In this document: one piece after another, positions 26,340 to 34,672 of the stretch
Position numbering within the stretch: the stretch's first letter is position 1
How the letters are laid out: the number at the start of each line of letters is the position of its first letter
NCBI RefSeq assembly: GCF_900070355.1
Contig: NZ_LN849456.1
Coordinates: forward strand, 1,860,001-1,924,000
Origin: Devriesea agamarum
Lineage (GTDB): Bacteria; Actinomycetota; Actinomycetes; Actinomycetales; Dermabacteraceae
DNA length: 64,000 bases
Direction: 5' to 3'
The notes under the pieces: model-generated
Databases searched by the model: none
The model's input: only the letters and a program-made list of their open reading frames with translations
What the model was told of the DNA's origin: nothing
Program-made: the position numbers and the translations under genes

Positions 26340-27599
26340 TTACGATCCTTCGTGCTCGTCACAGACGCGTTGAAGAATCTCTAAATAGCGGCGCGCAAGA
26401 ATGTCATCGTCCGCGTGATCGGCCACCCAACGCCGACCCACATCGCCGCGATCCAGCTCCTCGCGGTGCGATTGGAGCCGGCGCCACAGGTCAGCCAAGC
26501 CTTGCGCATCCCCTGGCGCAAGCACATCTCCCGCCCCCGAATCCCGCAGCACCTGGGCAGCCTCACCATCCAGCAGACCGGTAATGTGCCTGCCCACCGC
26601 GAGCACTTCAAAGAGCTTGGACGGGATCGTCCAGCGGAAAGGTTCCCAATCTCGCAGGGACACCACCACCGTGTCGGCCCATAGGTAATGCCCCATCACC
26701 TGTTCGGGCGGAATCCGATCGTAAATGGTCACCGGAGCCTTGGTGCGGGCCACTAGCTGCGCCAGGCGCTGTCGGTCCGAACCGTGTCCGATCAGGCGCA
26801 CCGAGATCGGAACTCCCGCCTTTGCGAGCGCTGCCGCCGCGTAGACCAGCGTGTCAAGGCCCTGGCTGCGCCCCATATTCCCCAGATACAGGCAGTTCAA
26901 GGGGCGTCGCGCTCCCTCATCCTGGCCCCGACCTACCGGCGGCAGCAGAGGCCGGTGCGCAAGATCCGTGCCGTTGCGCACCACGTCCACCCGCCGGATA
27001 CCGCGCCCGCGCAGCACCTGGGCAAAATGTTCGGTCGTGGTAATCACATGATCAGCCGTGCGCTGACCGTTGGTGATGGCCCGGTGCACGCGCACCTTCA
27101 CCTCAGCGATCAGCCTGGCGTCACGGGAGAGCCCGCCGGTGTGCGTCACCAGGTCCGGCCAGGCATCGCGCATTTCCACGACCATCGGCAGACTGTACCG
27201 GCGTGCCAGTGCCCACGCGGCGAGCAGTGTGGGGATCGCTGGCACGGTCACCACGATCACCTCGGGGCGCGCCTCAGGATGTCGCCATAACCGGTCCAAT
27301 CGGTATGCCATAGACGCCGAACTCACCAGGTGATCCAGGGTTCTCGTGATGATGTCCTGGCCGTGCATCAGGTGAGCGACCCGCAGGATCCGCTCACCCT
27401 GATCACCTCGCTCGACCCGCCCCACCCGGTGGCGCCCTCGTTCAGCGCGGGGAATGCGGCCACTGGGATAGTGGGGCCGGGGGCAGACAACGAAGAGCTG
27501 GTGCCCAGCTTGTGCGAACCGGCGCGCCAACGCGCCCCAGCGACGCTGCGGTGCCCCGGTTTCCGGGGCGTAGTAGTGGGTGAGGAGCGCGATTCTCAT
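26340..27599 (-). CDS. GT4-family glycosyltransferase (WcaI-like)
   Basis: A 419-residue GT-B glycosyltransferase. [21 protein letters not shown] is the acceptor-side N terminus common to WcaI-like enzymes. [36 protein letters not shown] and [17 protein letters not shown] lie at the C-terminal donor site. It is upstream of rmlA on the same strand and probably transfers rhamnose or another sugar in this locus; the acceptor cannot be read from sequence. There is no good ribosome binding site, and the 123-base gap before it has no promoter I can support. Confidence 0.87.
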
Positions 27600-27722: not shown

Positions 27723-28478
27723 TCAGTCTGAACGCAACCCGGACTGTGAATCGGCGGCGTCACCGTGGCGGTCCGGGCTGTCCTGGCCCTCGCGCTCGTC
27801 GTCGCGATGATCATTAGCGTCGCACTCATCGTTGGTGTCGTACTGATCGTCGCGATGCGGATCGGCGTTGCCGCGCGGATCATCAGCGTCGCGCTGCTCA
27901 CCGTTACGGCGCTGCTCGCCTTGATCAGCCACATGATCACCGTCATCACCCGAGCCGGGTGCTTCACCTGCGTCACCCCGAACGGTCTGGTCGTAATCGA
28001 GACCGTAGTACTGGAAAATCTCGCGTTCTTCCTCCGGGGTGAGATGCCCGTCGGCATCCAGGGTCGGAGCCGCTTTGACCTCGTCGCGATCTCGCACCAA
28101 GTGCACCGCATCATCGTCAATCCGCGCTAGCGCCACCGGGACAAAAACTTCCTTGGTTCCGAACAGGCCCATAGTCACCGTCAAGAAGGTGGGGTGCTGA
28201 GTGCTGTCGTCGAGATAAATATCCCCGACTTTGCCGATTTTGTGGCCATCGGCTCCGAACACGGAGGCATTGCGCAGAGCACGGTACTGCTCCTGGACGC
28301 CCTTGGACTCCGCATGGCTTGATCGTGGGCCGCCCGATGTGGGCTGAGATTCGGCTGAGGAGATCTCCGAGGTGGGTTCCTGTGCCTCGGCCATCACATC
28401 AGTGTCGGGAGTCGGTTCAGACTGCTGTATGCCGTTCAGGGCGGAATCCTCCATGTCAACTGTGCCAGGTTTGCTCAT
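27723..28478 (-). CDS. PRC-barrel domain protein with acidic Asp/His-rich tail
   Basis: A 251-residue protein. Residues about 62-150 are a PRC-barrel: YRALRNASVFGADGHKIGKVGDIYLDD, FLTVTMGLFGTKEVFVPV and DGHLTPEEEREIFQYYGLD. The first 60 residues are Ser/Thr/Glu-rich and the last 80 are an Asp/Glu/Gly/His/Arg-rich low-complexity tail. PRC-barrels occur in stress-induced actinobacterial proteins and as protein-RNA or protein-protein modules. No membrane segment. The start overlaps the end of the CofE-like fusion gene by four bases, so the two are probably expressed together. Confidence 0.8.
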   Translation of the reverse strand: MSKPGTVDMEDSALNGIQQSEPTPDTDVMAEAQEPTSEISSAESQPTSGGPRSSHAESKGVQEQYRALRNASVFGADGHKIGKVGDIYLDDSTQHPTFLTVTMGLFGTKEVFVPVALARIDDDAVHLVRDRDEVKAAPTLDADGHLTPEEEREIFQYYGLDYDQTVRGDAGEAPGSGDDGDHVADQGEQRRNGEQRDADDPRGNADPHRDDQYDTNDECDANDHRDDEREGQDSPDRHGDAADSQSGLRSD

Positions 28479-31039
28479 CGGGCGAACACCACTGCCATCG
28501 GGGTTTGCTCACGGCCTTGTCCCAGGGGATTATCAGCGAACTGCAATTCATAGTATTCGCTGCTTTCCGGCGCCGCCTTGCCGAGCGTGTTGCGACCAAT
28601 ATCGTTGGCATCCATCACTACCGTGCCGGTAAAGGTGTCGCGCCATGCGGGCGGCACCGCATCCAGCACCACCCGGTTTAAGAAGTCGGCCACAATGTCG
28701 GGATCTTTAGGCGGAAGTTTCGCCGAAACATTCGCCGGATACACCGAGTACTCAGTTGGGCCATCAATAGCCCGGACGTTACCGCCCACCACCTCGTAGA
28801 ACAGGCCCTTACGACCAATCAGCTTACCCACCGCACCGGCCGCTGACGCCAGCAATACCCGCGGCAGACCCGCTTCCTGAATCGCTAAATGCATGGTCAC
28901 CGGATCACCGAGACCAATACCGGCAGGGGTTCGCGCCACGTATTTCGACAGGTTACGAGCCCAGATCCCGGGATGAATGTCCCAGACGAAATAGGACCGG
29001 CCCTGCATAATCGCGATGATTTTTTCGCTCACCGTCAGGTTCCAGGGGCGACCCACCGTCGCATCCCAGTGCGAGTCATCTTCATCAGCGGTTGCGAGGT
29101 GAGCGTCCAACGCCTCGAAAAAGTCCCGCACATACCCGCCGATTGACGAGGCCATCTCGGTTTCCGCCGTAAACTTCCCGGTGCGCAGCGGATACCGACG
29201 GACCATTCCGCCACCCACCGAGGCCGGCATCGCCAAGTCAAGGTTCTTCCCCTCGTTGGAGGCTAGCACCTCCTTCGGTGCGGGTTCGTCATGCGCCCCG
29301 TGGTCATCGCCCTCAGAAGCGGCGGCTAGACCCTCAGCGCGGAGCCAGTTGTCATCCTCAATCGAGGATTCAAGCAGTTCTCGAAGCCACAGCTCCAGCA
29401 AGTAGATGCGCCATAGCGGAGCGGAATCCGTGGCGAGTCGACCCGCGATGTAGGCGTCAAACGCATCCAGAGCAGCCCGCTGGTTTATCCACGGCCGCGC
29501 GCCCAAGGTCGATGAACGCAAAACTGCGTGCACCGAGCCCTTCAGCCGGGTAAACCATTCGTCGTCGTCAATTGTCCGCGTCGGCGCAGCCGGTGTTTCC
29601 TGGATCTCAGGCGGAAGAACGCGTTCGCAGGACGCCAGACCCGCGGGACCCACCGCAGACAGCACCCGAGCATCCGCGCAGGGCAGCACCAGATCCACGC
29701 CGCACGCTGCCGCGGTATGGCAGACCGCTTCAATATCGTCTGCCCGTACCCCGGTGTTGGCCGCACTCGGGGCAACGCTCACACACGATGAGGAAGCTAC
29801 ATCGACCGGATCGGGAAGACGCACAAGATCATCAATGCATAGCCGTTTACGCCGAGCCTGCGCCACCTTTTTAGCCAGTCCGGTCACCGTCTGCCGCGCC
29901 TTATCCACCGTGTGCCGGGCGCGAGTCACCACATCCAGGCCAGAAACCGTCACCTGGGTGTCATCAAACACCTCCGCGACCTGTGGCTTCGGTGTTGACG
30001 CCAGCAAACCCGCACCGGGAAGGCCCGTGGTGTCCACCACCAGCGGCACTGTCTCGGCAAGCTGACGCATCGCACAAAAATGAGCGTATTCCGCGAGGGT
30101 GCGCGGCGGCGCAGACCGAGTTCGCAAAAACAGTCCGAGATCGCGTTTGAACTGGTCCGTCGACGGATGAAGATCGCGGTGCGCCGTCGCCGACCCCAAT
30201 CGATCCACCACGATCTGGGCACGCGGACCGAGTGCCTGAACACTGTGAGCGCTGCGGGTTGCCGCCGACCGCACCGCAACCGTCGCCAACGCCGGGGCAT
30301 CCTCAGGCAGATCAGTTGCCGACCAGGCCCCCAGCGCAAGCGCGACCGCGGCCGTCGCAGCGTCATCGGTCATCGCAATTCCCACCGCCGGGCCAGTGAC
30401 CTCGTCGTGTCCTGCGACGCGATCCGGTGAGAACGCGGATTCGAGCGCTAAACCAACCGCCTCCACCACACCGGTGGAATCACCCGCATCAGCAGCGCGG
30501 CGTCCCCGCGACGTTCCCCGCGGCCGCCCGTTGTTCACGCGCTCAAAGCAGCACCGCCGCACATCGCCGTCAGCGTGGATCCGCACGATCTCATCGGCGC
30601 GTACCCGCTGAATACCAGCGATCAACGTATGCGAGGACTGACCGTCGGCATCGCCGCGCACATAGGCGTACGCCTGTTGCGGATCCGGACCCAGCTCATA
30701 CCCTGCACTGCGCAGTGCCCACACCAGTTCAGGTAGCTGCGCAGCCACTGTTACCGCTACAGCCTCGGGGGCATCAGATGCGGACGGATGGTGCACATGA
30801 AAGAACAGAGGCGATGCTGCCTGCCCATGCCTGGCAAGGACCAGCCCGTCAGAAGTCGGGATCACAGCGGCCCACACCTCGGGGCCTTTGGCCTGCGGCT
30901 GGTCCGCACTCACACAATCGGTCACCTCGTCCAACGACAAATTGCAGCGCCCGACAAAAGCCGCTGGGCCAGCCTCGGGCCCATTAAGACCGACGACATA
31001 CTGCCTTGCGCCGGTCATGGGCCCGGGAAGGTCTGACAT
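28475..31039 (-). CDS. Degenerate asparagine-synthetase-like protein fused to CofE-like gamma-glutamyl ligase domain
   Basis: An 854-residue protein from the ATG at 31039; AGGA seven bases upstream favours it over the TTG at 31060. Residues 1-180 resemble the class II glutaminase half of AsnB (LARHGQAASPLFFH, SHTLIAGIQRV) without a catalytic Cys. Residues about 215-560 follow the synthetase half, but the SGGxDS loop is replaced by VGIAMTDDAATAAVA. The last 250 residues match the CofE/F420-0:gamma-glutamyl ligase family: YPLRTGKFTA, LTVSEKIIAIMQGRSY, ARTPAGIGLGDPVTMHLAI, GRKGLFYEVVGGNVRAIDGP and VVMDANDIGRN. No cofC, cofD or fbiC gene is in the window, so F420 synthesis is unlikely. The substrate is unknown. 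Confidence 0.72.
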   Translation of the reverse strand: MSDLPGPMTGARQYVVGLNGPEAGPAAFVGRCNLSLDEVTDCVSADQPQAKGPEVWAAVIPTSDGLVLARHGQAASPLFFHVHHPSASDAPEAVAVTVAAQLPELVWALRSAGYELGPDPQQAYAYVRGDADGQSSHTLIAGIQRVRADEIVRIHADGDVRRCCFERVNNGRPRGTSRGRRAADAGDSTGVVEAVGLALESAFSPDRVAGHDEVTGPAVGIAMTDDAATAAVALALGAWSATDLPEDAPALATVAVRSAATRSAHSVQALGPRAQIVVDRLGSATAHRDLHPSTDQFKRDLGLFLRTRSAPPRTLAEYAHFCAMRQLAETVPLVVDTTGLPGAGLLASTPKPQVAEVFDDTQVTVSGLDVVTRARHTVDKARQTVTGLAKKVAQARRKRLCIDDLVRLPDPVDVASSSCVSVAPSAANTGVRADDIEAVCHTAAACGVDLVLPCADARVLSAVGPAGLASCERVLPPEIQETPAAPTRTIDDDEWFTRLKGSVHAVLRSSTLGARPWINQRAALDAFDAYIAGRLATDSAPLWRIYLLELWLRELLESSIEDDNWLRAEGLAAASEGDDHGAHDEPAPKEVLASNEGKNLDLAMPASVGGGMVRRYPLRTGKFTAETEMASSIGGYVRDFFEALDAHLATADEDDSHWDATVGRPWNLTVSEKIIAIMQGRSYFVWDIHPGIWARNLSKYVARTPAGIGLGDPVTMHLAIQEAGLPRVLLASAAGAVGKLIGRKGLFYEVVGGNVRAIDGPTEYSVYPANVSAKLPPKDPDIVADFLNRVVLDAVPPAWRDTFTGTVVMDANDIGRNTLGKAAPESSEYYELQFADNPLGQGREQTPMAVVFAR

Positions 31040-31167: not shown

Positions 31168-31866
31168 TCATCGCTCATTCGACTGGTGGTCGGGACCATC
31201 TACCTGCGTCGGGCCGAACTCGTCAAGAGGTTCCACCAGAATCATCGTCAGAAATTCACGCACGTCCTGACTCACCGACACCGCTCCCCCGAGCCGCCGA
31301 TAAACAGACAAGGAATCCACCATCGAGAGCAGAATCCGGGCTGCACAATCTGGATCCACCCCCGGCTTCAAGCCACCCTCAGCGGCAATAGCTCCCAGGC
31401 AACCGCTGATCATCTCAACCACGCACTGGTTTCGCTGCACAACTCGCTCGCGCGCCGGATGCCGCTCCTGCAGTGATTCCAGCTGCAACACCGAGAACAA
31501 CGAGTTGAGCTGGTGCGCCTGCTCTAAACGGTCGAGAAGTTCCACTAAATAGAGCAGAGCCTCTCGCCCTTTAGTGCCAGCCCGCTGAAATTCGTGATCG
31601 CGATTGGCTTCTGCAATATCGAGAACGGCTTCAAGAAGCTTTTCCTTCGACGTGAAATGGTGCAGCATCCCCGGATGCGAGATGCCAACCTGCGCCGATA
31701 TATCGCGCAGGCTCGTTCCCCGATAACCACGCTCCGCAAATAGTTTCGCGGCGCATTGAAGTATTTCTCGCCGTCTTCCTTCGCCCTTTACGTAATTCCT
31801 GTGCTGCAACAAGCTCGGGACGACCTTTCTGTCTGACAGCCACGCCGCTGAGGCTGCGACTGACAT
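31168..31866 (-). CDS. TetR-family transcriptional regulator
   Basis: A 232-residue regulator. The helix-turn-helix is at about residues 30-80: RRREILQCAAKLFAERGYRGTSLRDISAQVGISHPGMLHHF. The remaining 150 residues are the helical ligand-binding domain. It is on the same strand as, and 128 bases upstream of, the CofE-like fusion gene, so it may control that gene and the PRC-barrel gene. The N-terminal 25 residues before the DNA-binding domain may be over-called; internal starts are possible. The ligand is unknown. Confidence 0.85.
   Translation of the reverse strand: MSVAASAAWLSDRKVVPSLLQHRNYVKGEGRRREILQCAAKLFAERGYRGTSLRDISAQVGISHPGMLHHFTSKEKLLEAVLDIAEANRDHEFQRAGTKGREALLYLVELLDRLEQAHQLNSLFSVLQLESLQERHPARERVVQRNQCVVEMISGCLGAIAAEGGLKPGVDPDCAARILLSMVDSLSVYRRLGGAVSVSQDVREFLTMILVEPLDEFGPTQVDGPDHQSNER

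Positions 31867-32021: not shown

Positions 32022-34672
<2,651 letters not shown>

Follow-up and report, generated by a model that had tools for sequence, protein, structure and literature searches.

Amidation of the D-glutamate at position 2 of the peptidoglycan stem peptide (D-Glu2) bears on peptidoglycan cross-linking, and the α-carboxyl group of this residue is amidated by MurT/GatD, a Mur-ligase homologue paired with a class I glutaminase (PMC3266927). Enzymes of the AsnB family also act on peptidoglycan, as reported for the LtsA and AsnB amidotransferases of meso-diaminopimelate (mDAP) (PMC8554201). For the F420 ligase CofE, the proposed chemistry is attack of a carboxylate on the γ-phosphate of GTP, giving an acyl phosphate that is in turn attacked by the amine of an amino acid, and R234 of CofE is described as stacking on F420 (PMC10861534). 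A CofE relative, CT611 (FolC2; COG1478, TIGR04132), works on folate in organisms without F420 (PMC1971073). In the open-access literature, no description was found of a fusion of AsnB with a CofE-like domain or of a CofE-like enzyme of peptidoglycan. Here, one such fused gene from Devriesea agamarum is analyzed within a 64,000-nucleotide stretch of its genome (contig NZ_LN849456.1, positions 1,860,001 to 1,924,000; hereafter the window, whose numbering is used for its features). The reading favored, which we regard as evenly poised between right and wrong, is that the CofE-fold ligase stands in for MurT/GatD by capping the D-Glu2 α-carboxyl group, possibly with glycine. The gene and its parts are as follows; other genomes and loci are cited by their handles in this analysis (G and L).

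28475..31039, minus strand: fused gene of 854 codons and a TGA stop, starting from the ATG at 31039 (coding part without the stop, 28478-31039)
31060, minus strand: alternative TTG start of the fused gene, upstream of the ATG, which would give 861 residues
29330..31039, minus strand: dead AsnB half, residues 1-570, with the AsnB fold in the model and without Cys2, RGPD, SGGxDS, GQGADE, or RRNKIGF
28478..29266, minus strand: CofE-like ligase domain, residues 592-854, from the model and from the domain folded alone
28763..28765, minus strand: codon of D759 (in RAIDGP), placed opposite CofE D109 by the order of motifs; Asp in 56/56 fused sequences
28610..28612, minus strand: codon of D810 (in VVMDAND), matched to CofE D150 by alignment of hidden Markov models (HMM); Asp in 56/56 fused sequences

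An AlphaFold2 model of the full protein, built from 37 aligned sequences, had a mean pLDDT of 73.9. Residues 1-570 of this model matched structures of the AsnB family (TsnB9, Z 17.5; the R142I variant of human ASNS, Z 16.6; Escherichia coli AsnB, Z 14.7), and residues 611-854 matched CofE (2PHN; Z 13.4). Given that structure matches to the full model mostly covered residues 2-559, the C-terminal domain was run separately; modelled alone it reached a pLDDT of 89.1 and matched 2PHN with a Z of 12.8 over 183 residues at 3.2 Å, the next unrelated fold scoring 4.9. By sequence the likeness is remote: the AsnB half scored 13.7 bits against PF00733 (cut-off 21) and the CofE half 12.8 bits against PF01996 (cut-off 25). 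Searches up to E = 1 gave no match in NCBIfam, the TIGR01916 cut-off not being reached, and no match to MurT_C or a Mur ligase domain in Pfam. Both Cys2 and SGGxDS are absent, and the PP-loop position reads AMTDDAATA. The preliminary description of this locus, made from the sequence alone, had proposed an AsnB-shaped region with both active sites lost, joined to an intact-looking CofE-type ligase; the folds, the motif table, and the retained Asp residues bear this out.

In a scan of related genomes, the window protein found matches in 26 of 58, its own included, and a search of genome contigs gave 52 loci. Fusions occur in Brachybacterium, Dermabacter, Helcobacillus, Intrasporangiaceae, Flexivirga, Actinomyces, Schaalia, and one Coriobacteriales metagenome-assembled genome. 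Since both domains recur fused in many genera, the fusion is more than chance. In Clostridia the CofE-like domain is a standalone protein of 231-247 residues (locus L079 runs off its end). At E 1e-15 the domain was detected in 24/396 genomes of the phylum, that of D. agamarum included, and in 22/291 genomes of the class of one Clostridia carrier, counting that carrier and one broken match.

Many fused relatives have an intact AsnB half. The TIGR01536 cut-off is exceeded by L035, L033, L050, and L073 (393 bits against 267 for L035). Among fused sequences with the N terminus in view, Cys2, RGPD, and SGGxDS are all kept in 25/46 and Cys2 in 36/46; SGGxDS is kept in 44/56 fused sequences. These counts leave out 11 duplicate loci and the solo AsnB proteins L109 and L115, and the Cys2 count also leaves out 10 loci cut by a locus end. 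None of the three motifs is kept in the window protein, L003, or L004. In G605 the two parts form a split pair. Its asnB gene, which retains RGPD, SGGLDSS, and (behind a TTG start) Cys2, stops at a TAA, and the start codon (ATG) of a standalone cofE-like gene comes directly after it. Elsewhere, one fused gene with a decayed AsnB half seems to be spread over two contig ends (L029 and L005, G029), and the same C-terminal part is found in L032, a B. phenoliresistens record. The Flexivirga genome G062 has, besides an intact fusion, a solo AsnB of 614 residues (L111) outside the fused clade.

In the CofE-like half, E672, K673, Q679, R681, D759, D810, N812, and D813 are invariant in all 56 fused sequences, and the counterparts of E672, K673, Q679, D759, D810, N812, and D813 are retained in a set of 23 sequences that includes Clostridia. 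The CofE motif at D109 reads AGIDASN; D109 and D150 of CofE we take to be metal ligands. The structural match to 2PHN, compared by range only, stops at CofE residue 221; the last 28 residues of CofE (222-249, including R234) therefore have no counterpart in the match.

The absence of MurT from carriers of the CofE-like domain was set down as a prediction and then tested with MurT_C (PF08353) alone. In the family of the window organism, MurT_C was found in 0/26 carriers and 9/10 non-carriers. The other carriers of the first set gave 1/11 for G058-G068 (a marginal match), 0/4 for G605, G709, G682, and G688, 1/1 for G409, and 0/8 for Clostridia, and the other non-carriers gave 6/14 for the order and 4/6 for Clostridia. 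In a second set of 80 genomes, MurT_C was present in 2/42 carriers (G295 and G477) and 29/38 non-carriers. Over both sets the counts are 4/92 carriers against 48/68 non-carriers (Fisher 5e-20, kinship being ignored in this and the following values); they are 0/21 against 5/6 in genus g5 alone (7e-5) and 1/32 against 15/20 in Clostridia (5e-8). Controls in Corynebacterium glutamicum and Lactococcus lactis contained MurT_C. The non-carriers are those listed in the search outputs and were not sampled at random; of the 16 taken from the phylum list, 12 belong to two families (f21 and f22). Not all CofE-like matches behind the 92 carriers are strong and complete: those of G109 and G567 contain a stop, those of G572 and G635 are partial, and several lie at E 1e-17 to 1e-33. 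The distribution of the CofE-like domain is thus nearly complementary to that of MurT.

The complementarity points to D-Glu2 as the site, and reported wall compositions bear on the group attached there. Intrasporangium calvum carries glycine on the D-Glu2 α-carboxyl group (PMC3035309); it is a carrier species (L035), and MurT is missing from its genome, G060. The peptidoglycan of Brachybacterium vulturis and Brachybacterium avium contains glycine (PMC6090031), and G027, taken as B. vulturis, and G026, putatively B. avium, are both carriers. Older chemotaxonomy assigns Brachybacterium a glycinamide cap, for which the literature searched gave no match. Brachybacterium equifaecis is described as lacking glycine (PMC10581053); its candidate genomes are G016, a non-carrier with MurT, and G014, a carrier, the assignment being tentative.

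An alternative, unlikely but well within consideration, is that the CofE-like domain amidates D-Glu2 with ammonia, yielding D-isoglutamine as MurT/GatD does, and that the ancestral AsnB, a class II glutaminase, supplied the ammonia in the manner of GatD. This would explain both the mutual exclusion with MurT and the linkage, by fusion or within an operon, to an AsnB that bears a glutaminase, and glmS, which encodes another class II glutaminase, lies directly upstream of the standalone gene in 4/11 Clostridia loci (GlmS confirmed; L079 cut), although in the other standalone Clostridia loci, viewed by eye, no glutaminase neighbor was recognised. Free ammonia can also stand in for the GatD glutaminase of Staphylococcus aureus in vitro (PMC3266927). 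The ammonia alternative is opposed by the glycine of I. calvum and by loss of the glutaminase Cys in 10/46 fused sequences that keep the ligase.

Several observations weigh against a D-Glu2 ligase, or against glycine as its substrate. D759 was placed by motif order only, and the position of CofE T151 is Ala in the window protein. An hhalign comparison of the CofE-like family with a two-sequence CofE alignment covered 54 columns near the N terminus (probability 52) and left the D759 region unaligned; the Asp positions are therefore unconfirmed by hhalign. Four carriers have MurT (G065, marginal at 24.5 bits, G409, G295, and G477), and 20/68 non-carriers are also without it, among them G022, which has neither gene. 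Kinship inflates the p-values, yet switches occur within genera g5 and g6. Many other loci, in Actinobacteria and Clostridia, have no recognised cell-wall neighbor. Brachybacterium faecium (G028) is a carrier, although its murein is reported to consist of mDAP, Ala, and Glu without glycine (PMC3035206), which also favors ammonia. Conversely, Brachybacterium nesterenkovii has glycine in its peptidoglycan (PMC10581053), and its putative genome, G022, is a non-carrier. Given that these two species stand against glycine as a general rule, the site is held more confidently than the nucleophile.

The non-carriers without MurT, together with diverse neighbors in Actinobacteria and many Clostridia, would also suit a CofE-fold ligase acting on a different small acid, in which case MurT would be absent by coincidence of lineage or as an indirect effect of cell-wall type. 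CT611 works on folate, so acceptors change within the CofE family. Nevertheless, the exclusion was predicted beforehand and holds within single genera and in two phyla, and we consider another small acid rather improbable.

Other neighbors of the CofE-like gene are consistent with a role at the cell wall. In a second sample of Clostridia, murB follows the gene in 8/21 loci, with PHP, rapZ, and yvcK next in 8/8 of these and whiA in view in 6; L124 has an extra stretch before PHP, and in the murB loci only murB was checked against NCBIfam. The split pair of G605 is flanked by proC and divIVA, with ftsZ farther upstream (ftsZ...proC-asnB-cofE-like-divIVA). In G477 the CofE-like gene is preceded, together with a transglycosylase, by a 725-residue protein (L147:5371-7545) with Mur_ligase_M, MurT_C, and a sub-threshold GATase_3, which its domains suggest is a MurT-GatD-like fusion. 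Alanine-racemase-like genes occur nearby in G709 and G682, under the TIGR00492 cut-off; at L142:4115-5823 (G682), two adjoining frames match N- and C-terminal parts of alanine racemase and are perhaps one broken or split gene. A probable action on the cell envelope, as first proposed, is supported.

A role as F420 or folate glutamate ligase is suggested by the CofE fold and by passage of the PF01996 cut-off by the four standalone Clostridia relatives scanned and the G477 protein. CofD exceeded its cut-off in only 8/43 carrier genomes, all with loci of the Intrasporangiaceae group or Flexivirga; a ninth genome, G068, shows no more than a fragment at the end of a contig, and 17/43 (G068 included) gave weaker, sub-threshold matches such as YvcK produces. 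Neither CofD nor CofH was found by search in the genome of D. agamarum, and the F420 role was rejected on these two genes. The folate role was rejected because FolC exceeded its cut-off in 22/22 carrier genomes tested. With CofE residues 222-249, including R234, also lacking a counterpart in the structural match, either role is scarcely credible. A PF01933 match in the D. agamarum genome turned out to be the gene that we take to be yvcK, lying between what are presumably rapZ and whiA. That genome has a second PF01996 (F420_ligase) gene (G000:C1:69728-70354, L001; 145.8 bits), whose N-terminal part resembles FbiB (202.8 bits to PRK13294, cut-off 304). The statement that no other F420 genes are present thus fails on this second gene and holds for CofD and CofH, and the view of a CofE-type ligase outside an F420 pathway stands.

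The AsnB half has decayed repeatedly. On a tree of the CofE domain, the fully decayed state requires at least four changes, or seven when partly decayed sequences are included, counts that cannot separate gain from loss. For this tree, 12 near-duplicate or cut sequences and 7 solo AsnB proteins were left out, and 8 of the 11 Clostridia loci and L032 were added. Rates of substitution (dN/dS) were obtained with Nei-Gojobori code written for this analysis; L033/L034 gave no value, and the window pairs are near saturation (dS 1.5-1.9). Intact pairs have similar rates in both halves (AsnB 0.10-0.39, CofE 0.12-0.48), for example 0.216 against 0.167 for L035/L072 and 0.37 against 0.189 for L035/L080. 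Decayed pairs, from the window clade and Brachybacterium (L053, L058, and L067), gave 0.46-1.04 for the AsnB half and 0.10-0.27 for the CofE half: 1.037 against 0.267 for L053/L058, 0.459 against 0.104 for window/L003, and 0.468 against 0.146 for window/L004. Decayed L058 against intact L063 gave 1.472 and 0.35. Judged from these rates, the CofE-like half appears to be the part of the window protein that is kept by purifying selection, and the AsnB half looks like a decaying relic rather than a conserved scaffold. The suggestion that the latter serves as a scaffold or acceptor domain is not borne out, in view of the many intact relatives, the recurrent decay, and the contrast in rates. The case against it is weakest for a Dermabacter trio of intermediate rates (AsnB 0.18-0.22, CofE 0.04-0.05), in which some constraint must therefore be left on the AsnB half.

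The D. agamarum genome also encodes an intact AsnB without a CofE part (L114), which carries the motifs of the fused clade and nests within it (SH-aLRT 99 and 95 at the forks, 92 at the nearest) on a quick tree with long branches from which 12 near-duplicate or cut sequences were left out. The two functions would thus now lie in two genes. A partner AsnB compensating decay everywhere was ruled out: of the 10 genomes in which the AsnB half of the fused copy has decayed completely (G000, G004, G005, G007, G010, G012, G013, G018, G020, and G029), only that of D. agamarum (G000) has another full-length AsnB, and the two-gene split is therefore seen only there. In 11/33 genomes (G001, G017, G035, G058-G061, G065, and G067-G069), an SGGxDS-keeping fused copy is the sole full-length AsnB. 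The genomes of L042 and L045, whose fused copies are partly decayed, have second fused copies in which the AsnB motifs are retained (L112 and L113), apparently through duplication followed by decay again. A third AsnB-family gene of D. agamarum (L107; G000:C1:1079793-1080896) has an SSGIDSS motif and lies outside the fused clade; it is probably of what we take to be the LtsA type, which amidates diaminopimelate.

The immediate neighbors of the fused gene in the window are as follows.

27723..28478, minus strand: PRC-barrel protein gene (PF05239, 41.9 bits)
31168..31866, minus strand: TetR-family regulator gene, upstream of the fused gene (PF00440, 57.6 bits)
32022..34672, minus strand: genes upstream that, from their Pfam domains, we take to be asd and ask, in the same order in L117 and L118
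22929..27599, minus strand: glycosyltransferase gene (26340-27599) and genes presumed to be rmlA/rmlB/rmlCD-like, downstream, in an order partly common to L117, L118, and L032

The start codon of the PRC-barrel gene and the stop codon of the fused gene overlap in ATGA (28475-28478), which suggests translational coupling. The order ask-asd-TetR-fused gene, with rml genes downstream, is common to the window, L117, and L118. Of the 26 loci compared, L117 and L118 have the TetR/rml setting, L032 has part of it, and the other 23 do not have it; in the Actinobacteria loci viewed beyond the window, L117, and L118, the neighbors differ. A conserved operon across the family was thereby ruled out and, because the neighbors differ outside close relatives, the use of the surface-glycan locus as a guide to function is not supported, contrary to what had been supposed. 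From this setting the preliminary description had derived a ligase that joins an amino acid to a glycan or a lipid-linked acid and in which the AsnB part is a scaffold or acceptor domain. The adjacent rml and glycosyltransferase genes, the still predicted AsnB fold, and the Dermabacter rates would fit such a ligase; the want of this setting at the other loci, the AsnB rates in the other decayed pairs, and the existence of the CofE-like domain as a separate protein make it very unlikely, and the evidence points instead to the peptidoglycan stem peptide as acceptor.

For the D-Glu2 ligase, the following course can be proposed. The ancestor would have been a bifunctional enzyme, a glutamine-dependent AsnB with a CofE-fold ligase, of which the window lineage would retain the ligase beside an AsnB half that has lost its catalytic residues. 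In the CofE-like half, GTP (or ATP) and metal would most likely activate a carboxylate as an acyl phosphate, and attack by an amine would give an amide. The carboxylate would most likely be the D-Glu2 α-carboxyl group of a UDP-MurNAc-peptide or lipid precursor, the site amidated elsewhere by MurT/GatD, and the amine most likely glycine, with ammonia next. In intact fusions the AsnB half may supply ammonia or amidate the product. A more specific form of the D-Glu2 proposal, offered tentatively, is that a so far unrecognised enzyme attaches glycine to the D-Glu2 α-carboxyl group in at least two phyla, a CofE-fold ligase having replaced MurT/GatD; the AsnB of intact fusions would amidate the adduct to a glycinamide cap, and AsnB would decay in lineages whose glycine stays unamidated.

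If the D-Glu2 reading is true, an apparent stray F420 ligase in genomes of Dermabacteraceae, Intrasporangiaceae, Actinomyces/Schaalia, and some Clostridia is a cell-wall enzyme; where the D-Glu2 substitution of these taxa comes from becomes testable; and a second fold acts at the MurT site. The CofE-like half may thus be an unrecognised route to cell-wall modification, occurring in the genomes searched mostly where the usual amidating enzyme is missing. The fused family also illustrates cleanly how the halves of a bifunctional enzyme can decay or separate repeatedly.

Compared with known systems, the CofE-like half resembles Archaeoglobus fulgidus CofE (2PHN/7ULD) in its fold, in the position of D150, and in the order of the ID, PPxDPD, and DxND motifs. 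It differs in being fused to AsnB, in having Ala for T151, and in the lack of a counterpart of residues 222-249; none of the IDGP, MDANDIGR, and DNPLGQ motifs of the window family was seen in the CofE stretch compared, and 35/43 carrier genomes have no CofD over the cut-off. FolC2 (CT611) is likewise a CofE relative serving another pathway, but the carriers tested here keep FolC. Residues 1-570 share the fold of asparagine synthase (TIGR01536, PF00733), and intact relatives pass TIGR01536, whereas the window protein has lost every catalytic motif checked and is sub-threshold for PF00733. The mDAP amidotransferases of the LtsA/AsnB type are AsnB-family enzymes acting on peptidoglycan, and D. 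agamarum has an SSGIDSS AsnB; such proteins group outside the fused AsnB clade and lack a CofE part. With MurT/GatD, the fused protein would share the D-Glu2 α-carboxyl site, and its distribution among genomes complements that of MurT_C; in place of a Mur-ligase homologue and a class I glutaminase, it presents a CofE fold with no MurT_C match.

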